Positions 26,826-44,725 of a DNA stretch of 64,000 nucleotides are shown piece by piece. Below the pieces are notes generated by a model, which was given only the letters and a program-made list of their open reading frames with translations, was not told the DNA's origin and did no database searches. The stretch spans positions 58,310 through 122,309 of the forward strand of contig NZ_QWJJ01000016.1 of the NCBI RefSeq assembly GCF_003575965.1, read 5' to 3'. The translations under genes and the position numbers were made by a program. The DNA comes from Pseudooceanicola sediminis (lineage in GTDB: Bacteria; Pseudomonadota; Alphaproteobacteria; Rhodobacterales; Rhodobacteraceae). Each line of letters begins with the position of its first letter. Positions within the stretch are counted from its first letter, which is position 1.

Positions 26826-27057
26826 GATATGCGCCTTTCCGCCTATTCAGATTTCCGGGTTTCCCGTCATATGCCATCGCAATAGACTGCGCCTGCGGCA
26901 TGCCGTACTGGCTCGGGCCGATCCGATTTGTCGCCAATTGGCCACAGGAATCGCGCTCGCCCACTATTGCTATGGCCCCAATGCGCTTAAGGATTAGATA
27001 AACGTGGGCCGCAATTGGCGGCGCGCTCATATGGGATTTAACACGAATGTTCTCTGC

Positions 27058-27903: not shown

Positions 27904-28504
27904 CCTGACCCGGCGCCGCTTTGTCGGCGGTGCACTGGCGCTGGCGATCGCGCCGCTCTTCCTCTCTCCCCGTGCCGCTCTCGCGCTCAGCGATGCGCAG
28001 GCCAAGTCCATGGTCGACAGCCTCGTCGCGCGGATCAACCAGGTGATCGCCTCGGGCAAATCCGAGGCGGCGATCATCCGGGATTTCGAACAGATCTTCG
28101 ACCAGTACGCCGATGTCTCGATCATCGCGCAATCCTGCCTCGGGCCGGCGGCACGCGGCCTGTCAGGGGCGCAGCTGGCGGCCTACACAGCGGCCTTTCG
28201 CGGGTACATCACCCGCAAGTACGGCAAGCGGTTCCGCGAATTCGTCGGTGGCCGGATCGAGGTCAACGACGCTCGCGAGGTCAAGACCTGGCACGAGGTG
28301 ATCACCACCGCCTACCTGCGTGGCGAAGCCCCGTTCGAGGTCAAGTTCCTGGTGTCCGACCGGTCCGGCCGGGACCTGTTCTTCGACATGTTCATCGAAG
28401 GCATTTCGATGCGCCTGACGGAACGAGAGGAAATCGGCGCCATGCTTGACCGCAACCGTGGTGACATCGCCGCCCTGACCGCAGACCTGCAACGCGCCGG
28501 CTAA
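27893..28504 (+). CDS. mlaC: MlaC-family periplasmic phospholipid-binding protein
   Basis: MlaC shuttles phospholipid between MlaA and the inner-membrane complex. The 203-residue protein starts MLNDLTRRRFVGG, an RR-containing signal (Tat-like) followed by a hydrophobic stretch ALALAIAPLFL, then mature sequence with YFIRDFEQ-like IIRDFEQIFDQYADV, GPAARGLSGAQLAAYTAAFRGYI and FEVKFLVSDRSGRDLFFDMFIEG. The start is inside the end of mlaA. A terminator follows 43 bases after the stop. Confidence 0.92.
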   Translation: MLNDLTRRRFVGGALALAIAPLFLSPRAALALSDAQAKSMVDSLVARINQVIASGKSEAAIIRDFEQIFDQYADVSIIAQSCLGPAARGLSGAQLAAYTAAFRGYITRKYGKRFREFVGGRIEVNDAREVKTWHEVITTAYLRGEAPFEVKFLVSDRSGRDLFFDMFIEGISMRLTEREEIGAMLDRNRGDIAALTADLQRAG

Positions 28505-28547
28505 CGGACAGGCGGATTTTCGGCCCACGACAGGGCCGCCCTGAAAG

Positions 28548-28581
28548 AAAGCCCCGAATGGTCCACGCCATTCGGGGCTTT
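28548..28581. terminator. Bidirectional terminator between mlaC and the PBP gene
   Basis: A perfect 14-bp stem (28548-28561 with 28568-28581) with a 6-base loop and A/T-flanked ends, between convergent genes. It is preceded by AAA and followed by TTTCGCGTTT. Confidence 0.85.
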
Positions 28582-28644
28582 CGCGTTTCGGGCCCTTCCC
28601 GACCGCACAATGTGCAGATCAGGAAGGAGAGGCGTGGGCAGCAA

Positions 28645-30930
28645 TCAGTTCAGGCCAAAGATATCCTTCAACGCCTTCTGGATGATCGTGTCCAGGCGTT
28701 GCGGTTGCTGCTGGCTCTGCCTGGCGTTGTCGCTGCTGGCGGCGACATTGCGCCCGGCGTTGGGGTCGGGCCGCAGCATGGGCAGGGGTTTGGGTTCGAC
28801 CCCGTCCTCGACCCGGCTCATCACCTCGTGAAAGATCTCGGCGGGCAGGCCGCTGCCGGTCACGCCGGTCAGCGGGGTGTTGTCGTCATAGCCCATCCAG
28901 ACGCCGGCCACGTAATCGGCCGAGAACCCGATGAACCACGCGTCCCGCGTGGATGATGTCGTTCCGGTCTTGCCGGCGATTTCGTGATCGTCCAGCCCGG
29001 CGCGCGTACCGGTCCCGTGCAGCACCACCTGGCGCATCATGTAGATCAGTTCCTGCGCGGCACCTTCGCTGATGACACGCTCGCCGATCCCGCCGTCGCT
29101 GCCCATCAGGGGCTGGCTGTCGCCCTGCAATGTCACCGATTCGATGCCATAGGGTTCCACGGACGACCCGCCATTCAGGATACCGGCATAGCCGCCGACC
29201 ATCTCGATCAGCGTCGATTCCGAGGCCCCGAGGGCCAGCGCCGGCCCCTGCGCCAGGTCGCTCTCGATGCCGAAATCCGATGCGACCTTGCGCACGTTGT
29301 CCAGCCCGGCGGCCTCGGCCAGCCGTACCGCGGGGATGTTCAGCGACTTCATCAACGCCTCTTCCAGCGTCACCGGGCCGCGGAACTTGTGGTCATAGTT
29401 CTCGGGTTTCCACGGGCCTGATCCCGGCACGTTGATCGTCAGCGGTTCATCCTGCACGACATCGTTGTAATGCCACCCGAGGTCCAGCGCCGCCCCGTAG
29501 ACGAACGGTTTGAACGCCGATCCGGTCTGACGCAGCGCCTGCGTGGCCCGGTTGAACACACCCTTCACCCGCGTGTCACGGCCGCCGACCATCGCGCGCA
29601 CTGCGCCGTCCGGCCCCATGACGACGATGGCGGCCTGCGCCTTCGACGTGTCCTTCACCTTTTCTTCAAAGATGTACTTCATCGCTTCTTCGGCGGCCTT
29701 CTGGATCCGCTGATCCAGTGTCGTCCTGAAAATCACGTCCTGCGTCGATTTCTTGGTCAGGAAATCCGGCCCGGACGACATCACCCAATCCGCGAAATAC
29801 CCCCCCGACTGTGCCTCGGCCGCGGCGGACAGACCGGCAGGATGAGCAATGGCGTTGCGCGCCTGCGTGCTGTCCAGATACCCCTGCTCCTGCATCAGGC
29901 CGACGATCACGTTGGCGCGGTTCTGCGATCGTGCCAGGTTGTTGGTCGGGGCATAGCGCGTCGGTGCCTTCAGCAGCCCGGCCAGCATCGCGGCCTCGGC
30001 CGGGGTGACATTGGCGGCGGATTTGCCGAAATAGCGCTGGCTGGCGGCTTCGAAACCACGGGTGCCCTCGCCCAGGTAGGCGCGGTTCATGTAGACGGTC
30101 AGGATCTCGTCCTTGGAATAGCGCATCTCCATGCCGATGGCATAGACGGCCTCCTTGACCTTGCGCCACAGCGTCGTCTGGCGACAGTCGTCCTCATACG
30201 CGGTTTCGTTCTTCCACTGCTTCGGATCGTAGGGCGTGCCGAGGCACAGCAGTTTTGCCGTCTGCTGGGTGATGGTCGACCCGCCATGTCCATCCAGCGG
30301 CCCCCGCCCTTCGCTCAGGTTGATGCGGATGGCCCCGGCCACGCCGCGCGGGCTGACGCCAAAGTGCTTGTAGAACCGGCGGTCCTCGGTCGCGACGATG
30401 GCATGGCGCAGGTTGGGCGACACGCTCTGCGCATCCACCACGCCGCCGAACTGGTCACCGCGCCAGGCAAAGACCTGGCCATGCGTGTCCTGCATCGTCA
30501 CGGACCCGCGCGCGCGCCCGTCGAACAGGTCGTCCACGGGCGGCAGCGTCGCCGCGACATAGGCCGAGGCCAGCAGCACCAGCGCGACACTGACCGCCGT
30601 CAGCCGCCAGACGAACCGCCAGATCAGCGCGATGATCCCGCGCAGCAGACGCACGATGGGGTTGCGCGACCCGCCGCCGCCACCACCCCGGCCGCCACGC
30701 CCCTTGCGCGGGGGCTTGCGGGGCGGTTGCTGGCGCGATGCGGGTTTCGCAGACCGCGCGGCAGGTTTGGCCGTCTTCGCCGAGGGCTTGCTGGCGGCCT
30801 TCGCCGCGCCCGATTTGGAGGCATTTGCACGGGATCCGGTCTTGCCTGTCCCCGATGTGCGGCCTGCACGCGGCCCGCCCACTCGCCTGTCCGCCACGAG
30901 TGGCGGTTTGCGACGTCCTGAATCACTCAT
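28645..30930 (-). CDS. Class A penicillin-binding protein (PBP1A type)
   Basis: The 761-residue bifunctional enzyme polymerises and cross-links peptidoglycan. In order: a basic Ala/Lys/Arg/Pro low-complexity region (about residues 15-90, histone-H1-like), one membrane segment (about 95-120), the transglycosylase domain with EDRRFYKHFG, GGSTITQQTAK and KEAVYAIGMEMRYSKDEIL, and the transpeptidase domain with the SxxK serine in TGSAFKPF (about 467), SLN, and KTGTTSSTRDAWF (about 658). The basic cytoplasmic N-terminus is longer than in E. coli PBP1A and might contact nucleic acid or membrane, which is inference. Convergent with mlaC, divergent from glnK. Confidence 0.94.
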   Translation of the reverse strand: MSDSGRRKPPLVADRRVGGPRAGRTSGTGKTGSRANASKSGAAKAASKPSAKTAKPAARSAKPASRQQPPRKPPRKGRGGRGGGGGGSRNPIVRLLRGIIALIWRFVWRLTAVSVALVLLASAYVAATLPPVDDLFDGRARGSVTMQDTHGQVFAWRGDQFGGVVDAQSVSPNLRHAIVATEDRRFYKHFGVSPRGVAGAIRINLSEGRGPLDGHGGSTITQQTAKLLCLGTPYDPKQWKNETAYEDDCRQTTLWRKVKEAVYAIGMEMRYSKDEILTVYMNRAYLGEGTRGFEAASQRYFGKSAANVTPAEAAMLAGLLKAPTRYAPTNNLARSQNRANVIVGLMQEQGYLDSTQARNAIAHPAGLSAAAEAQSGGYFADWVMSSGPDFLTKKSTQDVIFRTTLDQRIQKAAEEAMKYIFEEKVKDTSKAQAAIVVMGPDGAVRAMVGGRDTRVKGVFNRATQALRQTGSAFKPFVYGAALDLGWHYNDVVQDEPLTINVPGSGPWKPENYDHKFRGPVTLEEALMKSLNIPAVRLAEAAGLDNVRKVASDFGIESDLAQGPALALGASESTLIEMVGGYAGILNGGSSVEPYGIESVTLQGDSQPLMGSDGGIGERVISEGAAQELIYMMRQVVLHGTGTRAGLDDHEIAGKTGTTSSTRDAWFIGFSADYVAGVWMGYDDNTPLTGVTGSGLPAEIFHEVMSRVEDGVEPKPLPMLRPDPNAGRNVAASSDNARQSQQQPQRLDTIIQKALKDIFGLN

Positions 30931-31021
30931 TTTTTACTGCCCGGAGCTTTTTGCTTTTCGACACTTTACAGACTTTGCCCGCGAATGTTGAGGCAGAAGC
31001 GCAAGGCTGAAGAGTTTTTGA

Positions 31022-31060
31022 TTTGCCCAATTTTTGTGCTTATTTTGAAATACGGGCAAA
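31022..31060. promoter_or_regulatory. AT-rich region with inverted repeat upstream of glnK
   Basis: TTTGCCC (31022-31028) is matched by GGGCAAA (31054-31060) around a 25-base A/T-rich loop, about 130 bases before glnK. The surroundings (31009-31085) are strikingly AT-rich. Nitrogen-regulated glnK-amtB operons are usually controlled by NtrC; a dyad here would be a candidate site, but it does not match a consensus I can state. Confidence 0.35.
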
Positions 31061-31186
31061 AAAACGGCATCCGATACGCAATTTACCCTAGCCAACTCGG
31101 CCCATTGTTCCGCATTCCGGGCAGGGACGGCTTATCTGCGGGTGCCAAACTGTGGACCCGTGTCCGCAACAAGGAAGGGGAAAGTA

Positions 31187-31525
31187 GTGAAACTCATTAT
31201 CGCAACAATCAAACCGTTCAAGCTTGAGGAGGTCCGCGAGGCGCTGACCGAAATCGGCGTGCGCGGGATGATGGTGACGGAAATCAAGGGCTTCGGCTCT
31301 CAATCGGGCCATACTGAAATCTACCGTGGTGCGGAATACGCGGTGAATTTCGTCCCGAAAATCAAGCTCGAGATCGCCGTGACGGCCGCGATGGCCGATC
31401 AGGTTGTCGAGACGATCACGACGACTGCCAAGACCGGGAAAATCGGCGACGGCAAGATCTTCGTGCTGGATATCCAACAGGCGGTTCGGGTGCGGACCGG
31501 CGAAACCAACGACGACGCACTCTGA
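31187..31525 (+). CDS. glnK: Nitrogen regulatory protein PII (GlnK)
   Basis: The 112-residue PII protein senses 2-oxoglutarate and ATP/ADP and controls the adjacent ammonium channel. The start is GTG at 31187 with AAGGAAGGGG upstream, giving MKLIIATIKPFKLEEV. Tyr51 in the T-loop (GAEYAVNF), the uridylylation site, is present, as are the B-loop TGKIGDGKIF and C-loop residues. Its place directly upstream of amtB identifies it as the GlnK-type PII rather than GlnB. Confidence 0.96.
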   Translation: MKLIIATIKPFKLEEVREALTEIGVRGMMVTEIKGFGSQSGHTEIYRGAEYAVNFVPKIKLEIAVTAAMADQVVETITTTAKTGKIGDGKIFVLDIQQAVRVRTGETNDDAL

Positions 31526-31557
31526 ACTGCGACCGGACAGGGGAAAGGACTCACTCT

Positions 31558-32880
31558 ATGAAAACCGTTACCAAATTTGGCCTGGCTGCCGCGTTGATCG
31601 CGCTGCCCAGTCTCGGCCTTGCGCAAGAGGCTGACACGACGCCTCCGATCGAAGAAATCGGCTATATCTTCACCACGTTCATGTTCCTCGTCACCGGCTT
31701 CCTGGTGATGTTCATGGGCGCGGGCTTCGCCATGCTCGAAGCCGGCCTCGTGCGTCAGAAGAACGCCACGATGCAGCTGATGAAGAACGTCGCGCTCTTC
31801 GCGATTGCAGCGATCATGTACTACCTCGTCGGCTACAACCTGATGTACCCGGGCGACGGCTGGACCGTCCTCAACGTCATCGGTGCCTTCGGGACCGCCG
31901 TGATGGAACCCGTCGGCCTGGCAGACACCGAAACCGACCTGACCTATGCGTCGGTTGGCTCGGACTTCTTCTTCCAGCTGATGTTCTGCGCCACCACCTG
32001 CTCGATCGTTTCCGGCACCCTGGCCGAGCGTATCAAGCTGTGGCCCTTCCTGATCTTCTGCGTCGTGCTGGCAGGCTTCCTCTACCCGATCCAGGCATCC
32101 TGGAAATGGGGCGGCGGCTTCCTGAACGAAGCGGGCTTCCTCGACTTCGCCGGTTCCACCGTCGTGCACTCGGTCGGTGGCTGGTGTGCCCTGACCGGCG
32201 CGCTGATCCTCGGCCCGCGTATCGGCAAGTACAAGAACGGCACCGTCACCCCGTTCCCCGGTTCGAACCTGACGCTCGCCACTCTGGGTACGTTCATCCT
32301 GTGGCTGGGTTGGTTCGGCTTCAACGGCGGTTCGCAGCTCTACATGGACACGGCTGCCAACGTTGCTGACATCTCGCGCATCTTCGCAAACACCAACACG
32401 GCTGCGGCCGGCGGTGCCATCGCGGCGATGATCCTGACGCAGATCCTGTACAAGAAACCCGACCTCACCATGGTGCTGAACGGCGCCCTGGCCGGCCTCG
32501 TGTCGATCACTGCCGAACCCCTGACCCCCGGTCTGGGCGCGGCAACGATCATCGGTGCCATCGGTGGTATCCTGGCCGTCCTGGCCGTGCCGATGCTGGA
32601 CAAACTGAAGATCGACGACGTTGTCGGCGCGATCCCGGTTCACCTGGTCTGCGGTATCTGGGGCACCATCGCGGTTGTCTTCACCAACGGTGACGCAACC
32701 ATCGGCGCACAGCTCTACGGCATCATCACCGTGGGTATCTTCACGCTGGTGGCCTCTGCCGTCGTCTGGTTGATCCTCAAGGTCATCGTCGGCCTGCGGG
32801 TCTCCGAGGAAGACGAGATCATGGGCCTCGACATGGCCGAGCTGGGCATGGAAGCCTACCCCGAGTTCTCCAAGGGCTGA
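31558..32880 (+). CDS. amtB: Ammonium transporter
   Basis: The 440-residue inner-membrane channel has a cleavable signal (KTVTKFGLAAALIALPSLGLAQ region, residues 2-23) and about eleven membrane helices. Conserved features: AGFAMLEAGLVRQKN, GTLAERIKLWPF, VVHSVGGW with the first pore histidine, GTFILWLGWFGFNGGS, and VHLVCGIWGTIAVVF with the second pore-region histidine. It is 32 bases after glnK and co-transcribed; GlnK blocks it when nitrogen is plentiful. A terminator follows. Confidence 0.96.
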   Translation: MKTVTKFGLAAALIALPSLGLAQEADTTPPIEEIGYIFTTFMFLVTGFLVMFMGAGFAMLEAGLVRQKNATMQLMKNVALFAIAAIMYYLVGYNLMYPGDGWTVLNVIGAFGTAVMEPVGLADTETDLTYASVGSDFFFQLMFCATTCSIVSGTLAERIKLWPFLIFCVVLAGFLYPIQASWKWGGGFLNEAGFLDFAGSTVVHSVGGWCALTGALILGPRIGKYKNGTVTPFPGSNLTLATLGTFILWLGWFGFNGGSQLYMDTAANVADISRIFANTNTAAAGGAIAAMILTQILYKKPDLTMVLNGALAGLVSITAEPLTPGLGAATIIGAIGGILAVLAVPMLDKLKIDDVVGAIPVHLVCGIWGTIAVVFTNGDATIGAQLYGIITVGIFTLVASAVVWLILKVIVGLRVSEEDEIMGLDMAELGMEAYPEFSKG

Positions 32881-32909
32881 GCTTCCCCTCCTGAAACGGA
32901 CTGAGATCG

Positions 32910-32935
32910 GCCCGGGCGTTCGCGCCCGGGCTTTT
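32910..32935 (+). terminator. amtB terminator
   Basis: A perfect 9-bp GC stem (32910-32918 with 32923-32931) around a TTCG tetraloop, followed by TTTT. A textbook intrinsic terminator 29 bases after the amtB stop. Confidence 0.92.
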
Positions 32936-33078
32936 GCATGTCCGTCGTCCGGGCGGTGGCGTGGCAAACCGGCTCATGTCGTCACGACAAAGGCGATCCC
33001 GCCGCGCCGGGCAATTGCCGCACCGCCAAATCCGTGGTTAGGATTCCTGCAAAGACCAAGAACAAGGGAACGGGACAG

Positions 33079-34299
33079 ATGTACGACATCGCGGCCATCG
33101 GGGCCTGGCTGGAATTTGCTGTGCGCTGGCTGCACGTGATCACCGCCATCGCCTGGATCGGATCTTCCTTCTATTTCATCGCGCTCGACCTCGGGCTGCA
33201 CCGCGACCGCAACCTCGCCTCCGGCGCGGATGGCGAAGAATGGCAGGTCCACGGCGGCGGCTTCTACCATATCCAGAAATACCTGATCGCGCCCGACGCG
33301 ATGCCCGCCCACCTCGTCTGGTTCAAGTGGGAGGCCTATTCGACCTGGCTCTCCGGGTTCTTCCTGCTGGCGCTGGTCTACTACCTCGGCTCCGACTTCT
33401 ATCTGATCGACCCGGCGGTCATGGACCTTGCCCCCTGGCAGGCCATCGCGATTTCGCTCGCCTCGCTCGGCCTCGGCTGGCTGGCCTATGACACCATCTG
33501 CAAATCGAAGTTCGGGGATGACAACACCCGCCTGATGATCGGCCTCTACGCCATCCTCGTCTGCCTGGCGTATTTCTATACGCATGTCTTCTCGGGCCGT
33601 GCTGCCCTGCTGCATCTCGGGGCCTTCACCGCCACGATCATGAGCGCGAACGTCTTCTTCATCATCATGCCGAACCAGCGCATCGTGATTGCCGACCTCA
33701 AGGCGGGCCGCAAACCCGATGCGAAATACGGCAAGATCGCCAAGCAGCGGTCGACCCATAACAACTACCTGACGCTGCCGGTCATCTTCATGATGCTGTC
33801 CAACCACTATCCGCTGGCGTTTTCCACCCAGAACACCTGGATCATCGCGTCGCTGGTGTTCCTGATGGGCGTCACGATCCGGCATTTCTTCAACACCATG
33901 CACATGCGCAAGGGCACGCCCTACTGGACCTGGCTGGTGACCGCGATCATCTTCCTTGCCATCGCATGGCTGTCGACCGCGCCGATGTTCCGTGCCGATG
34001 AAGACCCCGAGGCCGGCATCGTCACCCGTTTTGCCGAGGCCGAGGGATTCGCGCATGTCACCGACATCGTCATGGGCCGCTGTTCGATGTGCCATAACGC
34101 CGAACCCTTCTATGACGGCATCCTCTGGGCGCCTAAGGGGGTGCGGCTGGATACCCCCGCCAATATCACCCGCAATGCCCGCATGATCTATCTGCAGGCC
34201 GGGCTCAGCCACGCCATGCCCCCGGCCAACGTCAGCTTCATCGAACCGGCGGAACGTCAGGCGATCATCGACTGGTACGCGGCGGCAACCAAGGGCTAG
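33079..34299 (+). CDS. puuD: Urate hydroxylase PuuD (membrane-anchored, cytochrome c domain)
   Basis: The 406-residue inner-membrane protein has about eight helices in the N-terminal 310 residues (VRWLHVITAIAWIGSSFYFIALD, GGGFYHIQKY, NFFNTMHMRKGTPYW-like) and a C-terminal soluble domain with the heme-binding CSMCH near residue 334 and a later methionine in GLSHAMPP as likely axial ligand. PuuD oxidises urate using the cytochrome rather than oxygen. The ATG at 33079 follows GGGA with MYDIAAIG; the upstream frame is unconserved. Other purine-degradation genes are absent here, though an M20 amidohydrolase of the allantoate type lies 3.4 kb downstream. Confidence 0.9.
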   Translation: MYDIAAIGAWLEFAVRWLHVITAIAWIGSSFYFIALDLGLHRDRNLASGADGEEWQVHGGGFYHIQKYLIAPDAMPAHLVWFKWEAYSTWLSGFFLLALVYYLGSDFYLIDPAVMDLAPWQAIAISLASLGLGWLAYDTICKSKFGDDNTRLMIGLYAILVCLAYFYTHVFSGRAALLHLGAFTATIMSANVFFIIMPNQRIVIADLKAGRKPDAKYGKIAKQRSTHNNYLTLPVIFMMLSNHYPLAFSTQNTWIIASLVFLMGVTIRHFFNTMHMRKGTPYWTWLVTAIIFLAIAWLSTAPMFRADEDPEAGIVTRFAEAEGFAHVTDIVMGRCSMCHNAEPFYDGILWAPKGVRLDTPANITRNARMIYLQAGLSHAMPPANVSFIEPAERQAIIDWYAAATKG

Positions 34300-34346
34300 G
34301 GCGTGGGCACCCCGCCTCGGGCAGCGCACGCGCGGCGGGACGGGGC

Positions 34347-34364
34347 GGCGGGGTGAACCCCGCC
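34347..34364. terminator. GC hairpin after puuD
   Basis: GCGGGG and CCCCGC pair around TGAA, with one further G-C pair outside, 50 bases after the puuD stop. There is no T-run, so termination is uncertain. Confidence 0.4.
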
Positions 34365-34468
34365 CTGCGGCCCGCCCGACCCGCCCACAAGATCCATCCA
34401 CAGCAAACCACCGCCAGCGGCGTTTCCCCCCGTTCCCGACTCATCACAGACATGCTAAGTCTTGGGTT

Positions 34469-36394
34469 ATGCACCGCCCAGACCCCAACATACGCGACAC
34501 CCAACCTGTCATTCGCCAACTCGACGACTCCGCGATCAACCGCATCGCGGCGGGCGAGGTGGTCGAACGCCCTGCCTCCGTGGTCAAGGAACTGGTCGAA
34601 AATGCGCTCGACGCCGGGGCCACCCGGATCGAGGTGACCATCGCGGATGGCGGCAAGACCCTGATCCGCGTGCGCGACGACGGCTGCGGCATCACCCCCG
34701 ATGCGCTGCCGCTGGCCCTGTCGCGCCACGCCACCTCCAAGATCGACGGCTCCGACCTGCTCAACATCCACAGCTTCGGATTCCGGGGCGAGGCGCTGCC
34801 CTCCCTCGGTGCGGTCGGTCGCCTGACCCTGACCTCACGCGCGCGCGGATACGAGGCCGCCGAGATCCGCGTCAGCGGTGGCCGTACCGATCCCGTCCGC
34901 CCTGCCGCGCTCAACTCCGGCACCGTGGCCGAACTGCGCGATCTGTTCTATGCCACGCCCGCCCGCCTGAAATTCCTGCGCACCGACCGCGCTGAAACAC
35001 AGGCGGTCACCGACATCATCAAACGCCTCGCCATGGCGGAACCCTTCACCGGCTTTACCCTGCGCGATGCCTCGGGCGGCGGCGAGGGGCGCGTGCTGTT
35101 CCGCGCCGACCCCGAGACGGGCGACATGTTCGACGCACTGCATGGCCGCCTCGCCACTGTGCTGGGCCGCGAATTTGCCGAAAACGCGCTGGCGATTGAT
35201 GCCGAACGTGAAGGCCTGCACATGACCGGCTACGCCGCCCTGCCGACCTATTCACGTGGCGCGGCGGTGGCGCAGTTCCTCTTCGTCAATGGCCGCCCGG
35301 TGCGGGACAAGCTGTTGATGGGCGCGCTGCGCGCCGCCTATTTCGATTTCCTTTCGCGGGACCGCCACCCGGCGGCGGCGCTGTTCATCGATTGCGACCC
35401 GGTGCTGGTCGACGTCAACGTCCATCCCGCGAAATCCGAGGTCCGCTTTCGCGACCCGGCCGTCGCGCGCGGCCTGATCGTGTCGGGCCTGCGTCACGCG
35501 CTGGCGAACGCCGGGCACCGTGCCTCGACCACCGTCGCAGGCGCGACCCTCGGGGCCTTCCGCCCCGAGCGTCCGTCGCAGGCGGCCCTCGGCGCTGCGC
35601 AACAGGCCCTGGCGCCGGAAGATCACGATGCGCCGCGCGTCTATCAATACGACCCGCGACACCGTTCAGATACCGCTCAGATACCGTCCGGATACCGACG
35701 TTCGAATCCTGGCTTTTCAGACACTTACGCCGACATGCTGCCCAGTCTGACACCGACACCCTCTGCGCGCGCCGAACTGCCGGTGGAAAATGACACCCAG
35801 ACCCCGCTCGAAGCATACCCCCTCGGGGCGGCCCGCGCGCAGGTGCACGAGAATTACATCATCGCCCAGACGACGCGCGGCATGGTCGTCGTCGATCAGC
35901 ACGCCGCCCACGAACGGCTGGTCTATGAAAAGCTGAAGGCGCAGATGGCGGCCAGTGGCGTGCCCTCGCAGGCCCTGCTAATCCCGGAAATTGTCGAGCT
36001 TTCTCAATCGGATGCCGCCCGCCTTCTGGACGCTGCGGACGACCTCGCACGCTTTGGCCTGCATATCGAAGCCTTCGGCGGGGGCGCCATCGCGGTGCGC
36101 GAAACCCCCGCGATCCTGGGCGAAATCAACGCCGAGGCGCTGATCCGCGACGTGCTGGACGAGCTCACCGATCAGGATGACAGCATGGCCCTTCAGGCGC
36201 GGGTCGAGGCGATCCTGTCGCGGGTCGCCTGTCATGGGTCGATCCGTTCGGGTCGCCGTATGCAAGTCGCTGAAATGAATGAACTTTTGCGGCAGATGGA
36301 GGCAACCCCCCATTCCGGTCAGTGCAACCATGGCCGCCCCACCTACGTGGAGCTGCAACTCTCTGATATCGAACGGCTTTTCGGGCGCACATGA
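34469..36394 (+). CDS. mutL: DNA mismatch repair endonuclease MutL
   Basis: The 641-residue MutL couples MutS mismatch recognition to strand incision. The N-terminal GHKL ATPase has VKELVENALDAGATRIEV, DDGCGI, RHATSKI and GFRGEALPS, followed by the transducer domain to about residue 330. The C-terminal domain has DQHAAHERLVYE, the metal-binding endonuclease motif, plus ACHGSIRSGRRM and CNHGRPTYVEL. The linker (about 340-460) is variable and contains an array of the dispersed GATACCG element in frame, coding HRSDTAQIPSGYRRSN. No ribosome site is obvious. Its stop overlaps rmuC by four bases. Confidence 0.95.
   Translation: MHRPDPNIRDTQPVIRQLDDSAINRIAAGEVVERPASVVKELVENALDAGATRIEVTIADGGKTLIRVRDDGCGITPDALPLALSRHATSKIDGSDLLNIHSFGFRGEALPSLGAVGRLTLTSRARGYEAAEIRVSGGRTDPVRPAALNSGTVAELRDLFYATPARLKFLRTDRAETQAVTDIIKRLAMAEPFTGFTLRDASGGGEGRVLFRADPETGDMFDALHGRLATVLGREFAENALAIDAEREGLHMTGYAALPTYSRGAAVAQFLFVNGRPVRDKLLMGALRAAYFDFLSRDRHPAAALFIDCDPVLVDVNVHPAKSEVRFRDPAVARGLIVSGLRHALANAGHRASTTVAGATLGAFRPERPSQAALGAAQQALAPEDHDAPRVYQYDPRHRSDTAQIPSGYRRSNPGFSDTYADMLPSLTPTPSARAELPVENDTQTPLEAYPLGAARAQVHENYIIAQTTRGMVVVDQHAAHERLVYEKLKAQMAASGVPSQALLIPEIVELSQSDAARLLDAADDLARFGLHIEAFGGGAIAVRETPAILGEINAEALIRDVLDELTDQDDSMALQARVEAILSRVACHGSIRSGRRMQVAEMNELLRQMEATPHSGQCNHGRPTYVELQLSDIERLFGRT
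35658..35697 (+). repeat. Phased GATACCG array, copy 2 (4 units, 11-bp period), inside mutL
   Basis: Units start at 35658 (GACACCG), 35669, 35680 and 35691 (all GATACCG), 11 bases apart with spacers TTCA, CTCA and TCCG, followed by ACGTT. It sits in the non-conserved MutL linker in frame. In another reading frame one 33-bp cycle codes an 11-residue unit starting DTVQIP, which explains open frames around such arrays. Confidence 0.88.
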
Positions 36395-37626
36395 TCCAGA
36401 TCGGTTCCCTCACGCTGGATACCTCCGATCCGCTGACCCTCGTAATACTCGGTGGCGCGGCGGGCTTTGTCATCCTGTTGATTCTGCTGATCTTTTCGCT
36501 GCGCGCTGCCGCTCGCGCCTCTGATCCGCTGATCTGGCAGATGACCCAATTGTCGCGTCATGTCGAAGGGCTGGGCCGCGGTCAGGAACAACTCGCCGGG
36601 AATTTGTCCAACGTTTCCAACGCACAAACGACAGGGCAGGCACAGATGCTGCAATCGATGGAGGCTCGTCTGGCCCACGTCCAGCAGCAGATGAACGACC
36701 GGCTGCACGAAAACGCCATGCGCCAGGCCCGCTCTCTCTCCGAGATGCAGGAGAAGATGAACGCCCAGCTGCGCGGCGGCTCCGAGAACACCGTCAAGAG
36801 CCTGAGCGCCCTGCAAGAGCGGTTGCAAACGATTGACAAGGCTCAGGAAAATATCACGAAGCTGTCCGGTGACGTGCTGTCGTTGCAGGATATCCTGTCC
36901 AACAAGCAGACCCGTGGCGCCTTTGGCGAGATCCAGTTGAACGATATCGTCTCCAAGGCGCTGCCACCCGACAGTTATACGCTTCAGGCCAAGCTCTCCA
37001 ACGACCGCCGCGCCGATTGCCTGATCCATCTGCCGAACCCGCCCGGTCCCATCGTCGTCGATGCCAAGTTCCCGCTTGAGGCCTACGAGGCCCTGCGCCG
37101 CGCTGATACGACTGAGCAGAAGGCCCGCGCGGCGCAGATGTTTCGACAGTCCGTCCGCCATCATATCCGTGCGATTTCAGACCGTTATATCATCGAGGGC
37201 GAGACTGCGGACGGTGCGCTGATGTTCCTGCCCTCCGAAGCGGTCTATGCGGAACTGCACGCCAATTTCACGGATGTGGTGCGCGAAAGTTTCAACGCCC
37301 GTGTCTGGATCGTCTCGCCCACGACCTGCATGGCGACGCTGAACACCATGCGTGCCATCCTGAAAGATGCCCGGATGCGCGAACAGGCGGGTGCCATCCG
37401 CAAGACCCTGCACCTGCTGCATCGCGACGTCGAACTGGTGGTCGAACGCGTCGGAAAGCTGGAAACGCACTTCGATCAGGCGCGCCGTGACCTGGATGGT
37501 ATAGGCACCGCCGCCGAACGCGCCGGTAAACGTGCGCTGCGCCTCGATAATTTCGACTTCGAAGAGCTGACGTCAGAGGATGCGACGCCGCTGGAAAGCC
37601 TGGCGCAGGCGCCGTCAAACGGGTGA
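36391..37626 (+). CDS. rmuC: DNA recombination protein RmuC
   Basis: RmuC limits inversion-type recombination at short inverted repeats and carries a nuclease-like fold. The 411-residue protein has an N-terminal membrane segment (about 15-38), a coiled coil (about 50-160), and the RmuC domain: KQTRGAFGEIQLNDIVSKALPP, PPGPIVVDAKFPLEAYEAL with the Asp-Ala-Lys core, MFLPSEAVYAEL and WIVSPTTCMATLNTMRAIL. It overlaps the mutL stop by four bases (ATGA), an operon of two DNA-maintenance genes. Confidence 0.94.
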   Translation: MIQIGSLTLDTSDPLTLVILGGAAGFVILLILLIFSLRAAARASDPLIWQMTQLSRHVEGLGRGQEQLAGNLSNVSNAQTTGQAQMLQSMEARLAHVQQQMNDRLHENAMRQARSLSEMQEKMNAQLRGGSENTVKSLSALQERLQTIDKAQENITKLSGDVLSLQDILSNKQTRGAFGEIQLNDIVSKALPPDSYTLQAKLSNDRRADCLIHLPNPPGPIVVDAKFPLEAYEALRRADTTEQKARAAQMFRQSVRHHIRAISDRYIIEGETADGALMFLPSEAVYAELHANFTDVVRESFNARVWIVSPTTCMATLNTMRAILKDARMREQAGAIRKTLHLLHRDVELVVERVGKLETHFDQARRDLDGIGTAAERAGKRALRLDNFDFEELTSEDATPLESLAQAPSNG

Positions 37627-37725
37627 AATTGGCGCCGATCACCGCAGGGGCTTCCGCCGGGGGCATTTGCGTTCCAGGCCAAAGCTGTGGTCTTAGGTGA
37701 CTGACCCGTAGCACCGGAGGCCCCC

Positions 37726-38928
37726 ATGATTCCCGTTGATCCAGACCGATTTCTGGCTGATTTGCACCATCTGCGCAGCTTTGGCGCCTCTGGCGTCGGC
37801 AAGGGCGTGGTGCGCCAGGCCTATTCCGACGCCGACATCGCCGCGCGTGAATGGCTGGCCGCGCAATACGCCGAGGCCGGATTGCAGGCCACCATCGACC
37901 CGCTGGGTACGGTCTGGGGGCTGGCACCCGGGAAATCCCTTCTGGTCGGGTCGCACAGTGATACCCAACCCGAAGGCGGCTGGCTGGACGGTGCGCTTGG
38001 GGTGATCTGCGGGCTGGAACTGGCGCGGGCGGGGGTACAGGCTGGCCTCCCGATCTCTGCAGTGTCCTTTCAGGACGAAGAGGGCCGCTTTGGTGTCATG
38101 ACCGGCAGCCGCGTCTGGTCGGGCCGAACGACCCTGGCCGATGCGGATGCGCTGCGCGATTCCGGCGGTGTCACCTTTGCCGAGGGCCGTGCCCGAATGG
38201 CCCACATGGTCACGGGCGAGGTCGACCCCTCCAGGTTCTCCGGCTTTGTTGAATGCCATATCGAACAGGGCCCGTGGTTGGATGAGGCACAGGAGGCCGT
38301 GGGCGTTGTCACTGATATCGTTGGGATTCGTGACCTGACCATCACGTTTTCCGGTGAACAGAACCACGCGGGAACGACACCGATGCACCGCCGAAAGGAT
38401 GCCTTGAAAGGCATGTTGCGCTTTCAGTCCCTGATCGAAGAGCGGTTCCGCAACGTTGTGACCCCGCAAACGGTCTGGACGACTGGGCATGTGGATTTGC
38501 ACCCCGGATCGCACTCCATCGTTCCTGGGCGATGCAGTTTTTCGATGCAGTGGAGGGACGGTGACGCGGCACGCCTGGACCGAATGGAGACGATCGTGCG
38601 GGCAAGCGCGGCAGACGTCGCGGAAGAAACCGGGCTGACGCTTGAGATGTCGCAGATGCTGGGGCTGGAACCTGTGCCGATGGACCCTGCCTTGCAGGCT
38701 GCGTTGGCGATGGCCGCAGAGGGTCAGCTCCCGGGCCGCTGGCGCAAGATGCAATCGGGGGCCCTGCATGATGCGGCCAGCCTGTCGCGCCTGATGCCTG
38801 TGGCCATGCTGTTCGTGCCGTCGATCAACGGGATCAGCCACGCCTTTGCAGAAGACACCGAGGAGGCGGATCTTGTCGCGGGGCTGAAGGTGCTCGCCGA
38901 CGCTGTCGAGGCGATTGCCACCGCTTGA
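37726..38928 (+). CDS. M20-family amidohydrolase (allantoate / N-carbamoyl-amino-acid amidohydrolase type)
   Basis: The 400-residue cytoplasmic metallohydrolase has the dinuclear metal ligands of the M20/AmaB group: [19 protein letters not shown] (His, Asp), QDEEGRFGV (Glu), ECHIEQG (His) and [12 protein letters not shown] (His). The lid domain has [16 protein letters not shown]. The family hydrolyses allantoate, N-carbamoyl-L-amino acids or beta-ureidopropionate; sequence alone does not decide. The presence of puuD nearby hints at purine degradation. It stands alone, 99 bases after rmuC. An ATG at 37726 is supported by GGAGG upstream. Confidence 0.87.
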
Positions 38929-38959
38929 TGTGCGTCAGATGAGTGCCGGCCAGGCCGCG

Positions 38960-39667
38960 CTAGCCCCAGGTGACATCGCCTAGAAAGATATACCCCGCGC
39001 CGTAGATCGTCTTGATCAGGCGTGGGTTTTTCGTGTCTTCGCGCAATTTGGTACGTAGTCGAGAGATCCGCACATCCATCGCACGATCAAAACTTTCACC
39101 TGCGGCGCCGCCCAGAACCTCCTGCATGGTGGCCCGTGACACGAGGCGTTTCGGGCGTTCGAGGAACAGGCGCAACACTTCTGCTTCGGCATGGGAAAAC
39201 GGCGTCTCCTCTCCGTCTGCATCCTCTAGCGAGAAGCGGTCGAAATGGGCAGTCCAGCCGTTGAAGTGCGCGATCTGACCTGCGCCCGACCCCGTGACAA
39301 GGTGATCCCGACGCAGGCGTGCACGAATGCGCGCCACGACTTCGCCAGGGTCGAAGGGCTTGATGATGTAGTCGTCAGCACCGAGTTCCAGGCCGGTTAC
39401 CCGATCCTGCACTTGTGCACGGCCTGAAATGATGATGATCGTCGCCCCTTTTTCCAGCGCCAGGCGATGCACCAGGGTCAGACCGTCACGGTCGGGCAGG
39501 GACAGGTCGACCAGGCAAACATCGGGAGTGATGGTTTTCAGAGCAGCTTCGAAGTCTGTCGCGCGGGCAAAGGCGCGCGTCCGAAAACCTGCCTGTTCCA
39601 GCGCGGTGACAAGGATATCGCGGATTTCGGGTTCGTCATCCAGGATCGTGACCAGGGGGCTACTCAT
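38960..39667 (-). CDS. OmpR-family response regulator
   Basis: The 235-residue protein has a receiver domain with phosphoacceptor D54 (VDLSLPDRDG), acidic pair D10-D11, K in the IIKPFD loop, and a C-terminal winged helix (about 140-230, FSHAEAEVLRLFLERPKRLVSRATMQEVL, RAMDVRISRLRTKLRED, IYGAGYIF). It is immediately downstream of, and overlaps by four bases, a hybrid histidine kinase gene, so the two form a two-component system. Its target is probably the divergent operon beginning at 41815. Confidence 0.93.
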   Translation of the reverse strand: MSSPLVTILDDEPEIRDILVTALEQAGFRTRAFARATDFEAALKTITPDVCLVDLSLPDRDGLTLVHRLALEKGATIIIISGRAQVQDRVTGLELGADDYIIKPFDPGEVVARIRARLRRDHLVTGSGAGQIAHFNGWTAHFDRFSLEDADGEETPFSHAEAEVLRLFLERPKRLVSRATMQEVLGGAAGESFDRAMDVRISRLRTKLREDTKNPRLIKTIYGAGYIFLGDVTWG

Positions 39668-41577
39668 TCGACGCGCGCTCCTTCTTGCAGGAATGTACGT
39701 AGCTGGGTGGCATCGAAAGGCTTTTGCAGGACAGGGCCACGGGCCCGCGCGGCCCTGTGCAGGCCGTGGTCGGGGCGCAGCGAGGTCATCATGACAAAGG
39801 GCGGCGCAGCGGCCGGCAGCGCATCAAGCAGATCCAGGCCGGTCGCGCTGCCCTCAAGCGACAGATCGCTGAGGATCAATGCCAGATCGTCGAGATCCGC
39901 GATGATTTCCAGCGCTTCGGCGGCGGTGGGGGCCTCGATCACGGAATAGCCTGTCTCGACCAGCATCTGCCGGATCGATTGGCGCAGGTCGGTGCTGTCT
40001 TCGACCAAAAGCGCCAGACCTCCCGGAGAGGCCATTTGCGGCAATTCTCGCCAAGGTAGCGAAAGTATGACCTCCGCTCCCGAGGGGTGGTTTGCGATCC
40101 GCATGCGGCCACCGGCGCGCTGCGTCATGTCATAGACCATCGAAAGACCCAGCCCCGAGCCCTCCTTTCCCTTGGTGGTAAAGAAAGGGTCTGTCGCCTT
40201 TTTCAGTGCCGTGGCGGCAAAGCCGGGGCCGCTGTCCGACACCCGGATCTGCAACCATGTCCCCTGGACGTTGCCGCAGGTGATCACGATCCGCCCCGGT
40301 CCGTCGCCGATCGCGTCGCGGGCATTCAGGACGAGGTTCAGCAGACTGTCTTGCAGCATACCCGAATCCAGCCAAAGCCGTTGCGCCTTTGCGGTGTTGT
40401 CGATTGTGAGGTGCACGTTCACCGGCAGGGCAGAGCGGGCAAGCGTGGCGAAATCCGCCAGAAAGGCCGCCCAATCCGTCGGGCCGGGGCTGTGTTCGCG
40501 CCCCCCGGTCATGTCCGCGATCCGGTTGAGCAGGTCACCACCGCGCTTGGCCGCCCGCTGAGTCGCGGAGACCAGCGTCTGTGCCGCATCTGGAAGGTCT
40601 TGGCGCGCGAGTTGCGATTGCAGTCCAAGGATGATTGTCAGCAGGTTGGAAAAATCGTGCGCCATGCCTGATGTGACCTGCGCCGCCAGTTCTCTCCGTC
40701 GGGTCTGCGTCAGGGCGGCACGGGTCTGGCTTTCTTCGGTGACATCCATCGACATGATATAGACGCCTTCGGTGCCATTCGGTGTCAGGGCGGTCCGGAT
40801 GCGGCGGCTGCTGGATTCGTCCGTGAACTCAAACGCGGCGGCGCGCCCCTGCATCGCGGAATCGATATAGGGCCGCACGGCCTGGTGCACCTGGTGACCC
40901 AGAACATCCGCGATATGCAGCCCGACGATATGCGATGGTCGGCCGGGCAGAATGGTGTTCAGACGGCGGTTTGAATAGGTGTAGATCCGCTGCGGAGAGA
41001 TATGGGCGATATGGGCGGGCAGCATCTCGGTCGTCAGTCGTATGCGAGCCTCCATTTCCGTCAGGCCGCGACGCGCCTCCTCAAGCCGGGAATTTGCCGC
41101 CTTAAGCTGGCGGTTGGTGGCGGCCAGCTCTTCGGCGCGGGTCAACAGTTGGTCTGACAGCTCTTCGGAGCGGGCGCGAAGCAAGGCTTCCTGCCGTTTG
41201 GTGTCCGTGATGTCGGTATAGACGGCAACCCAACCGCCCTGCGGCAAGGGCGCACCTTCGACACTGACAACCCGACCGTTGGCACGTGTTCGTTCCATGT
41301 AATGTGGCTGAAAGGCGCGCGCAGTCTCGACCCGCTGGCGAATCGCCGCCTCGATATCATCAAGGGGGCCGTATTCGCCGCTGATGCAGAGGTGGCGGAT
41401 TGTATCTTCGAACCGGGCACCGGTGCGCACAAGTTCGGGCGGCAGATCGAACATCGCGCGAAACTGGCGATTGGATTGCACGAGGCGAAGATCCTGATCG
41501 TAAACGGAAAGTGCCTGCTGAATCAGGTTCAGACCGGCCATGGTCATCGTCTCTTTCTGCGATGCGCTGGTGTTCAA
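39664..41577 (-). CDS. Hybrid sensor histidine kinase with PAS domains
   Basis: The 637-residue protein lacks membrane segments, so it is cytoplasmic. Layout: two PAS-like regions (about 14-130 and 180-290), a coiled coil (about 130-180), HisKA with the phosphoacceptor in GMAHDFSNLL (about 307), an ATPase with NLVLNARDAIGDGPG, VSDSGPGF and GSGLGLSMVYDMTQRAGG, and a C-terminal receiver (about 520-635) with D572 in LSDLSLEG. The C-terminal receiver and the separate response regulator suggest a phosphorelay with internal transfer. It is divergent from the CoA ligase operon across 237 bases and probably senses a metabolite related to it. Confidence 0.9.
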   Translation of the reverse strand: MNTSASQKETMTMAGLNLIQQALSVYDQDLRLVQSNRQFRAMFDLPPELVRTGARFEDTIRHLCISGEYGPLDDIEAAIRQRVETARAFQPHYMERTRANGRVVSVEGAPLPQGGWVAVYTDITDTKRQEALLRARSEELSDQLLTRAEELAATNRQLKAANSRLEEARRGLTEMEARIRLTTEMLPAHIAHISPQRIYTYSNRRLNTILPGRPSHIVGLHIADVLGHQVHQAVRPYIDSAMQGRAAAFEFTDESSSRRIRTALTPNGTEGVYIMSMDVTEESQTRAALTQTRRRELAAQVTSGMAHDFSNLLTIILGLQSQLARQDLPDAAQTLVSATQRAAKRGGDLLNRIADMTGGREHSPGPTDWAAFLADFATLARSALPVNVHLTIDNTAKAQRLWLDSGMLQDSLLNLVLNARDAIGDGPGRIVITCGNVQGTWLQIRVSDSGPGFAATALKKATDPFFTTKGKEGSGLGLSMVYDMTQRAGGRMRIANHPSGAEVILSLPWRELPQMASPGGLALLVEDSTDLRQSIRQMLVETGYSVIEAPTAAEALEIIADLDDLALILSDLSLEGSATGLDLLDALPAAAPPFVMMTSLRPDHGLHRAARARGPVLQKPFDATQLRTFLQEGARVE

Positions 41578-41776
41578 ATGCCGTCCTCCTCTGCCATCGC
41601 TAGCGGGGAACGGGCTCCGGCGAAAGGGTGCCGCAGCGCAACCGCAGCGAGATCTCTTCGCAGGCGCAGTACCCGTAACAATTCGTTAGGTTTTGGAAAT
41701 GATCCAGTAAAAATTGCCGACAAGGCTGGCTTTGTCGCTAGGGTGATCCCCTGCGATCCGCTTTGAGGAGAGCGGC

Positions 41777-41798
41777 GTCCGGCTTGGGAGGGCCGGAC
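41777..41798. promoter_or_regulatory. Inverted repeat just upstream of the CoA ligase gene
   Basis: GTCCGGC (41777-41783) is perfectly matched by GCCGGAC (41792-41798) with 8 bases between, 17 bases before the GTG start of the operon's first gene and overlapping the GGAGG ribosome-site area. It could be a leader hairpin controlling translation or an operator. Confidence 0.4.
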
Positions 41799-41814
41799 TA
41801 CGGGAGGACAAAGA

Positions 41815-43791
41815 GTGACGGCAAATGCCCATGACGCGGGCGGGGCGGCGCAATCTATGCCGGCCCTGCTGGATCGCAACGCCAAGGCGTACCCAAAGAA
41901 GGCAGCCTATCGCGAGAAAGAGTTCGGGATCTGGCAAAGCTGGACCTGGGCCGAGACCCGCGAAGAGATCCGCATGCTGGCGCTTGGGCTGCTGGACCTT
42001 GGTGTGCAACGTGGCGATTTCATCGCGATCATCGGGGCGAACCGCCCACATCTTTATTGGTCCATCGTTGCGGCCCAGATGATCGGAGCGGTCCCGGTTC
42101 CCCTGTATGCCGACAGCGCGGCTGACGAAATGGCCTATGTCCTGGATCACTGCGGCGCGCGCTTTGTCATCGCAGAAGATCAGGAACAGGTCGACAAGAT
42201 CAGCGATATCCGGGCGCAGCTGGGCGCGCTTGAGGAGGTGATCTATCTGGATCCTAAGGGGATGCGCAAATACGACCATTCGCATCTGCATGACTTTGTC
42301 GGAATTCAGACCCGCGGCAATGCCGCACGCGGCACACTTCTGGTGGAGCTGGAGCGGCGCCAGGGCGACATCACTTATGACGACATATGTGTCATGCTGT
42401 ACACGTCCGGCACGACGGGCAAGCCCAAGGGGGTGGTGCTGTCGAACCGCAATATCATCGAGACGTCGAAAAACTCCTCTGATTTTGACAACTTGGGGCC
42501 GGGGGACGAGGTCTTGGCCTATCTGCCGATGGCCTGGGTCGGCGATTTCATCTTTTCCATCGGGCAGGCGTACTGGACCGGTTTCTGTGTCAATTGCCCA
42601 GAGAGCGAGACGACGCTGATCACCGATCTGCGCGAGATCGGGCCGACCTATTATTTCGCGCCGCCACGGGTGTTCGAGACGCAGCTGACCAACGTCATGA
42701 TCCGCATGGAGGATGCCGGGCGTCTGAAGAAAAAGCTGTTCGATCATTTCATGGGGCTGGCCCGGCGGGTGGGGGGCGACATTCTGGATGGCAAACCCGT
42801 GGGGGTGCTGGATCGCTTGCGATACCGGCTTGGCAGCGTCCTGATCTATGGTCCGCTTAAGGATACGCTCGGGTTGGGCCGGGTGCGGGTGGGCTATACG
42901 GCGGGCGAGGCGATCGGCCCTGAAATCTTTGATTTCTATCGCTCTCTCGGGATCAACCTGAAACAGCTGTATGGGCAGACCGAGGCCAGCGTCTTTATCA
43001 CGCAACAACCCGACGGTCAGGTGCGCAGCGATACGGTGGGGGTCGCCTCGCCCGGTGTCGAGATTCGCATCGGGGACAGTGGCGAGGTGTATTATCGCGG
43101 TCCGGGAGTTTTCGAGTATTATTACAAGAACGCCGAGAGCACGGCCTCGACCAAGGATGCGGAGGGGTGGGTGGCTACAGGGGATGCCGGTTTCATCGAA
43201 GAGGAGACCGGACATCTGCGTATCATCGACCGCGCCAAGGACGTGGGCAAGATGGCGGACGGGCGCCTCTTTGCGCCAAAGTACGTTGAAAATAAACTGA
43301 AATTCTATCCCAATATTCTCGAAGCCGTGGTTTTTGGCAACGGTCGCGACTGCTGCACCGCCTTCATCAACATCGACCTGAACGCGGTTGGCAACTGGGC
43401 GGAGCGCAGGAATATCGCCTATTCCAGCTATCAGGAACTGGCGGGGCACCCCCAGGTGCTGGATGCCATTCAGGGGCACGTCGAAGCGATCAATGCCTCG
43501 ATCGCGGAGGATGAGATGCTGTCCGGCTGCCAGATCCACAGGTTCTTGATATTGCACAAGGAACTGGACGCCGACGATGGCGAGATGACCCGAACGCGCA
43601 AGGTGCGGCGGCGGATCATCGAGGAGAAATACAAGGACCTGATCCAGGCCCTGTACAGTGACGCACAACAGGTCAGCACGCGCACCGAGGTGACCTACGA
43701 AGACGGGCGCAAGGGGCATATCGCGGCCACTCTGGTGCTGCGCGATGCCGCTGTGACGACGCCTGCACAACCACGGGTGGCCGCAGAATGA
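41815..43791 (+). CDS. AMP-dependent acyl-CoA ligase (FAA1/long-chain type)
   Basis: The 658-residue cytoplasmic ligase activates a carboxylic acid with ATP and CoA. Motifs: YTSGTTGKPKGVV near 196, AWVGDFIFSIGQAYWTG, LYGQTEAS, GWVATGDAGF and IIDRAKDVGKMADGRLFAPKYVENK with a catalytic Lys region. The start is GTG at 41815 with GGAGG eight bases upstream. A RefSeq-type label would be long-chain fatty-acid CoA ligase, but in this genomic context (with a Liv-type importer) the true substrate is open. First gene of the operon; overlaps the ATPase gene by four bases. Confidence 0.88.
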   Translation: MTANAHDAGGAAQSMPALLDRNAKAYPKKAAYREKEFGIWQSWTWAETREEIRMLALGLLDLGVQRGDFIAIIGANRPHLYWSIVAAQMIGAVPVPLYADSAADEMAYVLDHCGARFVIAEDQEQVDKISDIRAQLGALEEVIYLDPKGMRKYDHSHLHDFVGIQTRGNAARGTLLVELERRQGDITYDDICVMLYTSGTTGKPKGVVLSNRNIIETSKNSSDFDNLGPGDEVLAYLPMAWVGDFIFSIGQAYWTGFCVNCPESETTLITDLREIGPTYYFAPPRVFETQLTNVMIRMEDAGRLKKKLFDHFMGLARRVGGDILDGKPVGVLDRLRYRLGSVLIYGPLKDTLGLGRVRVGYTAGEAIGPEIFDFYRSLGINLKQLYGQTEASVFITQQPDGQVRSDTVGVASPGVEIRIGDSGEVYYRGPGVFEYYYKNAESTASTKDAEGWVATGDAGFIEEETGHLRIIDRAKDVGKMADGRLFAPKYVENKLKFYPNILEAVVFGNGRDCCTAFINIDLNAVGNWAERRNIAYSSYQELAGHPQVLDAIQGHVEAINASIAEDEMLSGCQIHRFLILHKELDADDGEMTRTRKVRRRIIEEKYKDLIQALYSDAQQVSTRTEVTYEDGRKGHIAATLVLRDAAVTTPAQPRVAAE

Positions 43792-44639: not shown

Positions 44640-44685
44640 TCGCCGCGCCGCAGCAAGTCCTTTGGAAACATGGAAAAATGCCTGT

Positions 44686-44725
44686 CGGTATCTGTACGGT
44701 ATCGGAGCGGTATCACGTCGGTGCC
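44686..44725 (-). repeat. Phased GATACCG array, copy 3 (4 units, 11-bp period)
   Basis: Read on the minus strand, units begin at 44725 (GGCACCG), 44714, 44703 and 44692 (GATACCG), 11 bases apart with spacers ACGT, CTCC and TACA, then ACAG and GCATTTT. This order and orientation mirror copies 1 and 2: a degenerate first unit followed by perfect ones. Confidence 0.85.

Follow-up and report, generated by a model that had tools for sequence, protein, structure and literature searches.

Background

In KOPS the orientation of the motif follows the leading strand, and a G-rich strand is the usual sign of a leading strand. Tus-Ter elements are orientation-dependent and act as polar fork traps. Plasmid iteron origins carry phased direct repeats beside an AT-rich segment, and the skew leads away from them on one side. 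AIMS are described as strand-biased octamers of the leading strand (PMC5993296). PHO boxes and other OmpR-family operators are described as tandem 11-nt direct repeats with 7 conserved and 4 variable positions, sometimes with several units per operator (PMC4415409). Local GC-skew peaks of Rhodobacterales lie in core-gene-rich regions and have been attributed largely to codon choice (PMC9836097).

The arrays of Pseudooceanicola sediminis described here repeat the heptamer GATACCG at 11 bp. With PHO boxes they have the 11-nt, 7+4 tandem repeat in common and differ in core sequence, in their dozens of non-promoter sites and in an orientation tied to strand composition. As in AIMS and KOPS they are biased to one replication strand, with local strand composition as the proxy; judged by skew they are oriented with the leading strand, the CGGTATC units lying on the G-rich strand. 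Unlike those octamers they come as phased arrays, 2-5 units each and spaced at about one per 45-65 kb (the Pseudooceanicola spongiae genome as a whole has 95 strict pairs), and they have a one-sided skew domain. Phased direct repeats and one-sided skew are shared with iteron origins, as perhaps is a somewhat AT-rich neighbouring segment, whereas the arrays occur in tens of chromosomal copies, have a putative role in replication and lack a common adjacent initiator gene, no gene family being present at more than three array sites when neighbouring genes were compared with each other. They are orientation-dependent like Tus-Ter, but are spread over most of the chromosome and have the stronger skew on the side that a polar trap does not predict. 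Local skew regions within one chromosome are found both here and in PMC9836097; in the sections of that paper considered here no sequence element is linked to them, whereas the present skew is tied to the array and follows the strand in all codon families. No description of arrays of this kind was found in the titles and abstract openings of the open-access papers surveyed, where absence is no proof.

Array structure and occurrence

The window, the whole stretch of 64 kb that was analysed, is C12:58310-122309 of the P. sediminis genome (4.44 Mb, 54 contigs). All three arrays of the sequence-only reading were found in it with the same coordinates and strands. Copy 1 (9517..9545, plus strand) reads AACACCG-N4-GATACCG-N4-GATACCG followed by ACGT and is intergenic, upstream of a LysR-type gene (9762-10667). 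Copy 2 (35658..35697, plus strand) has four units, GACACCG and three GATACCG, again followed by ACGT, and lies within mutL (34469..36394, plus strand) in the linker that precedes the C-terminal dimerisation domain. Its tail, ACGTTCGAATCCTGGCTTTTCAGACACTTAC (35698..35728, plus strand), resembled by eye many other P. sediminis array tails among the 80 listed. The next gene after mutL is of the RmuC family (36391-37626); in E. coli, rmuC has been linked to the limiting of inversions. Copy 3 (44686..44725, minus strand) has GGCACCG and three GATACCG. It is antisense to both of its neighbours, an ABC ATPase gene of the branched-chain amino acid type (43788-44639) and a permease gene (44832-45818), and lies in the gap between them.

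The pattern GRYACCG-N4-GRYACCG was present 8 times in the window compared to 0.01 expected from dinucleotide shuffles. Seven of the eight pairs belong to the three arrays and the eighth (61345) is a lone pair. Across the genome GATACCG-N4-GATACCG had 130 matches (77 plus, 53 minus) and the reversed pattern none. The counts are therefore far from those of shuffled sequence, the comparison that the sequence-only reading had called for. When 80 loci around mutL from other genomes (1.28 Mb) were scanned without specifying a heptamer, period 11 gave 9 three-unit arrays, and the control periods 8, 10, 13, 14, 16 and 17 gave 0-2 each. By eye, four of the nine were of the GATACCG kind and the rest were variants or unrelated repeats. 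The genome, shuffle and control-period counts rule out a chance or tandem-repeat artefact as the origin of the arrays. A structured RNA reading was dropped: at gathering thresholds neither the window nor 9 array loci gave an Rfam match other than a tRNA at 51210-51281.

Two array definitions were used: strict pairs (GATACCG-N4-GATACCG), or additionally phased ACCG triples of which one unit or more is TACCG. The P. sediminis list of at least 80 arrays was drawn from loci around the first 100 of the 130 strict pairs. The commonest array is chiefly intergenic and has a CACCG-type opening unit, then two or three GATACCG at a step of 11 bp. Among 75 P. sediminis arrays, in which contiguous phased ACCG units were counted as far as the final strict heptamer, 41 had four units, 24 three and 10 two. 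The degenerate first unit remarked on in the window is a general trait, with GCACCG as the majority form in P. sediminis, P. spongiae and the genomes G217 and G261. The common ends of copies 1 and 2 are the most frequent form in the genome, an ACGT quartet following the last heptamer at 53/75 P. sediminis arrays. Spacers vary by species: P. sediminis has TCAA/TTCA-type and others, P. spongiae TTCA and AC-type, G217 ACGC/ACGT and G261 mostly ACGT. The proposal of a dispersed, direction-bearing and helically phased family with the anatomy of a protein-binding site was supported.

The tail 3' of the array is somewhat AT-richer than the outer flanks in P. sediminis. In P. sediminis and P. spongiae AT content was 0.42-0.52 in the tail, 0.28-0.35 in the outer flanks and 0.38-0.47 in the array itself. 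The rise in the tail is modest and little above the AT of the array, which counts against a replication reading; in G217 (tail AT 0.31-0.39) it is hardly present. By eye, some P. sediminis tails finish in a TCAA-N-GRCTTG-like stretch and others in GTTAAC at about +25, with a second GTTAAC upstream. Around 77 P. sediminis arrays GTTAAC had 13, 8, 5 and 3 sites in the 50-bp bins from -100, 0, +50 and +100, the distant level being 0.14 per bin. Some P. sediminis and P. spongiae arrays have GTTAAC(C) on either side, at about -67 and +25 from the last heptamer. The 64-kb window contains no GTTAAC.

The nearest named relative is P. spongiae HQ09 (NZ_CP045201.1), with a MutL 94% identical. Strict pairs were present in 6/23 genomes of the genus, P. 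sediminis included, and in 17/248 genomes of the family. A slightly different pattern matched 26/394 family genomes, again including P. sediminis, with 22-42 matches in five genera other than Pseudooceanicola and 19 in one more. Class-wide, four ACCG units at 11 bp matched in 12/385 genomes. Nine of these lie outside the family and had no TACCG units among the matches listed, which were mostly tandem copies. An 11-bp-phased array with the core AAACCG / AAGCCG was seen near 529 of L168 (Rhodobacteraceae bacterium UBA1957) and is perhaps a diverged dialect. P. spongiae C1 0.92-1.56 Mb contained one strict array (1156159) in ~0.64 Mb, compared to roughly one per 65 kb chromosome-wide.

Strand composition around the arrays

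Array orientation is linked to strand composition, an unexpected result that was absent from the earlier reading. The cumulative GC skew of the window has its minimum in the 37-38 kb bin, between the plus-strand arrays at 9.5 and 35.7 kb and the minus-strand array at 44.7 kb. The plus strand is mostly C-rich over 1..37900, where both arrays are on plus, and mostly G-rich over 37901..64000, where the array is on minus. Within ±1450 bp, excluding the nearest 100 bp, the array strand was C-rich at 60/70 P. sediminis arrays, 40/43 in P. spongiae, 12/12 in G217 and 7/7 in G242, G151 and G176. In G671, of another genus, the 5' part of 3-kb loci was C-rich in 27/30 rows, or 22/24 distinct loci. The 3' part was alike within 1.5 kb (26/30 rows), which counts against a one-sided replication reading. 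The mean for 32 arrays in contiguous stretches was -0.071 compared to 0.002 (sd 0.012) by circular shifts, and 0/1000 trials reached it. Orientations were uniform over some long stretches of two chromosomes and mixed elsewhere: 13 of the 14 arrays up to 0.92 Mb of P. spongiae are minus, and 8 consecutive arrays at 1.13-1.87 Mb of G671 are plus. Whole-chromosome replichore polarity was rejected, being true over these parts only.

The sides of the array were compared in a long-flank set of 75 arrays from four genomes of two genera (P. sediminis 14, P. spongiae 40, G217 13, G261 8). Three of these were short of fourfold-degenerate sites on the 5' side, leaving 72 scorable. Array orientation predicted the C-rich strand on this side out to 8 kb: at fourfold-degenerate sites 0.5-8 kb 5' of the array, the array strand was C-rich at 72/72 (mean -0.184, sd 0.089), including 14/14 in P. 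sediminis (mean -0.125). On the 3' side the mean was -0.080 and 70% were C-rich; from 1-2 kb on this side is close to the background level of the region, -0.075 in the shift control. Of 74 arrays scored within 2 kb, 65 were C-rich. The paired difference between sides was significant (70 pairs, p = 4.3e-9). The arrays of P. sediminis and P. spongiae are largely orthologous, and the tests were therefore rerun without P. sediminis; all 58 pairs were negative on the 5' side (58/58, p = 3.9e-8). Single genomes, one of them from another genus, gave p = 2.6e-5 (P. spongiae), p = 0.0012 (G217) and p = 0.0078 (G261). Raw skew at 4-10 kb was also one-sided over 65 arrays (5' -0.057, 3' -0.023, paired p = 4.7e-5). 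In P. sediminis alone it was not (12 arrays, p = 0.91), and this counts against the replication reading.

When balanced for gene strand the skew stayed near -0.2 between -4 and +1 kb, weakened to -0.11 over +1 to +2 kb and lay at -0.06 to -0.08 between +3 and +6 kb; the 3' drop thus falls at the passage from the 0-1 kb to the 1-2 kb bin. Going outward on the 5' side, values were about -0.22 for 1-3 kb and -0.155 for 6-10 kb. Genes of either orientation were negative there in the pooled data. Single codon families differed widely between gene orientations; the strand-balanced 5' means were -0.16 to -0.20 in each of the 8 fourfold families. Codon choice was rejected as the cause of the skew on this agreement. 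Lone GATACCG away from arrays (n = 150) were negative in 48% of cases, and 56 permuted heptamers had a mean of 0.002 with a lowest value of -0.076. Circular shifts on 20-kb pieces, a conservative control that keeps regional skew, gave a 5' mean of -0.093 and a highest share negative of 0.886. No singular guiding octamer was found in the 5' flank, the best of all octamers counted having z 4.9.

Proposed role in DNA replication

The arrays are real, are kept in place and stand at one edge of a 5'-side domain of ~10 kb or longer whose G-rich strand is the CGGTATC strand. Rather than chance repeats, they appear to be direction marks for the copying of DNA. Heptamers that are phased, tolerant of spacer sequence and conserved in place point to a protein that binds along a single DNA face. 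The preferred explanation, given a little less than an even chance, is that the array is a strand-polar multi-unit site for a putative sequence-specific protein which sits on one DNA face and works with DNA replication. Such a protein would bind the units cooperatively. From the sign of the skew, the CGGTATC strand on the 5' side would behave as a leading strand running away from the array. The complex may start or restart unidirectional DNA synthesis, or may otherwise fix fork direction, and the DNA 5' of the array would then be copied mainly from the array outward. Here we infer the protein, the replication step and the causality alike.

Of the active mechanisms, the best fit is initiation or restart directed toward the 5' side. 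A polar fork barrier was rejected by reasoning, as it would make the 3' side purer, the opposite of what was observed. The sign change on the 3' side that a bidirectional origin should give was seen at some arrays only (23/73 positive at 3-8 kb, 10 of them above 0.1). Site-specific inversion at the arrays was likewise rejected by reasoning, as it would keep the polarity between array and flank on both sides, and P. sediminis and P. spongiae are colinear. The strongest form of the replication proposal is rather unlikely. It takes the arrays as sites of unidirectional initiation or restart, where dozens of local polar starts would have written the mosaic of strand-asymmetric domains in array-rich Rhodobacteraceae. 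To our knowledge, a bacterial chromosome with tens of local initiation points would be without precedent. If arrays do start or restart DNA synthesis, the one-origin rule for bacterial chromosomes would be broken. Through the arrays, the factors that set strand-asymmetric mutation, and possibly fork direction, in a bacterial chromosome become directly accessible.

Relatives without arrays

Two genomes of the same genus, G258 and G257, lack strict pairs altogether, and the 200 kb analysed of each contained no phased triple. They were compared around four P. sediminis arrays (three with 5' coverage in G257). Over the same genes the 5'-flank skew was -0.079 in G258 compared to -0.178 in P. sediminis, and -0.017 in G257 compared to -0.153. 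P. spongiae had -0.159 and -0.139 compared to -0.049 (G258) and -0.038 (G257). The sd of 4-kb skews was about half, at 0.086 in G258 and 0.077 in G257 compared to 0.146-0.164. An excess was also present on the 3' side (P. sediminis -0.089 compared to 0.006 in G258, and -0.065 compared to -0.024 in G257), which counts against a purely one-sided effect. G258 keeps -0.11 5' of mutL without an array. Both results count against the replication reading.

The same two genomes served as outgroups for changes since the split of P. sediminis and P. spongiae. In 5' flanks, on the array strand, G>C was 0.167 and C>G 0.106 with G258, and 0.160 and 0.116 with G257. The 3' flanks, some of which extend into the 5' flank of the following array, gave 0.173 and 0.122 (G258) and 0.178 and 0.148 (G257). 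The direction was reversed in the domain of opposite skew (0.112 vs 0.155; 0.136 vs 0.153). The substitution asymmetry seems to be maintained at present, by a moderate margin, because parsimony error alone yields a G>C/C>G ratio of about 1.15 by rough estimate. It is a G/C transversion asymmetry, unlike the C-to-T change expected of simple deamination, and it extends to 3' flanks; these two points and the contribution of parsimony error count against the replication reading; C>T and G>A among the flank changes did not show a deamination pattern.

These comparisons bear on the main rival, a passive KOPS-like or AIMS-like direction mark in a rearranged chromosome, which is possible at clearly less than an even chance. 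Arrays would have been selected for one orientation relative to a normal single-origin fork, small inversions would later have flipped array and skew together, and breakpoints would cluster on the 3' side, perhaps as forks stall there. The long runs of uniform orientation in P. spongiae and G671 are in its favor, and so is the excess skew over array-less relatives lying partly on both sides. Synteny with G257 and G258 breaks at 38905-38972 of the window, ~1 kb from the cumulative-skew minimum, as rearrangement predicts. Skew sign changes in Rhodobacterales have also been read as inversions (PMC9836097). By itself the mosaic does not give 72/72 on one side with background on the other. The colinearity of P. 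sediminis and P. spongiae across several flips, the opposite substitution asymmetry in two neighbouring domains and a skew amplitude about twice that of the two array-less relatives also argue against it. If the arrays are a direction mark read by a translocase, they would form a novel type of chromosome-polarity signal that is easy to find. On either reading, replication site or passive mark, they offer an alternative to codon choice as the source of local skew in Rhodobacterales.

Gene neighbourhood

Genes around the arrays were called with a codon-usage script and not with a standard gene finder. Predicted genes contain 5 of the 80 listed P. sediminis arrays, most arrays being intergenic, in agreement with the suggestion that arrays are tolerated in coding and non-coding DNA. 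Within 700 bp of arrays there were 84 gene 3' ends vs 60 gene 5' ends in P. sediminis, and 44 vs 38 in P. spongiae.

The absence of a gene family common to many array neighbours weighs against oriT-like or rolling-circle nick sites, an improbable explanation for which dozens of chromosomal sites would also be unusual. A protein would nick the CGGTATC strand in the array, the strand would be displaced toward the 5' side for transfer or repair, and strand-asymmetric mutations fading over ~10 kb would be left behind. The sign and the one-sided decay fit this, from the -0.22 and -0.155 of the 5' side to about -0.07 beyond 3 kb 3'. The direct repeats also count for it, since oriTs usually have direct repeats adjoining the nick.

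An operator of an OmpR/PhoB-type response regulator acting on neighbouring genes is quite improbable. The arrays have the 7+4 architecture of PHO boxes (PMC4415409) and some are upstream of genes. Their placement is not promoter-like by the counts of gene ends, with arrays also inside mutL and antisense between two co-directional genes, and a promoter operator was rejected on this placement. It also leaves the link with strand composition unexplained.

Conservation of array position

Colinear stretches of P. sediminis and P. spongiae contained 13 P. sediminis arrays, of which 11 were comparable and two lay at contig ends. Ten of the 11, including that in the MutL linker, were at the same place and in the same orientation in P. 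spongiae. The eleventh, at C2 108284, appears decayed there. No clean empty site was found among the 11. A two-unit array at C2 158583, outside that array definition, also has a partner in P. spongiae. By flank homology 20/43 P. spongiae arrays paired with one of the at least 80 listed P. sediminis arrays. Copy 1 is kept in P. spongiae where the immediate flanks are unalignable, the 3' alignment resuming beyond ~90 bp. Copy 3 keeps its place and orientation in P. spongiae and likewise in another genus (L097); a few array sites are common to different genera. This conservation of place looks like purifying selection acting on the array itself.

Linker arrays were also present in the MutL of P. 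spongiae (L128) and Pseudooceanicola sp. HF7 (L132), with other spacers. In alignment the linker with an array was no longer than in relatives without one. The mobility suggested earlier was not borne out: over the time scale tested the arrays do not move. Synteny in all relatives, the opposite expectation, held for the sister species P. spongiae and failed across the genus, where just 6/23 genomes have strict pairs.

An old interspersed repeat of the REP or MITE kind without present function is very improbable: the arrays are dispersed, chiefly intergenic, sporadic among genera and tandemly amplified in places, but they are polar, copy 1 outlasted the alignment of its immediate flanks, and the single absence among the arrays compared looks like decay and not like the empty sites by which a mobile repeat is recognised between close relatives. 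The tandem amplification was seen at contig ends, where arrays are repeated with their flanks every ~80-91 bp (L060 1437-1625, at the end of C27; L020 9-108, at the start of C6). Other tandem repeats of the window, unrelated to the arrays, are located at 50877-50953 (16-17 bp x4.7), 52368-52404 (18 bp x2.1) and 59030-59067 (13 bp x2.9).
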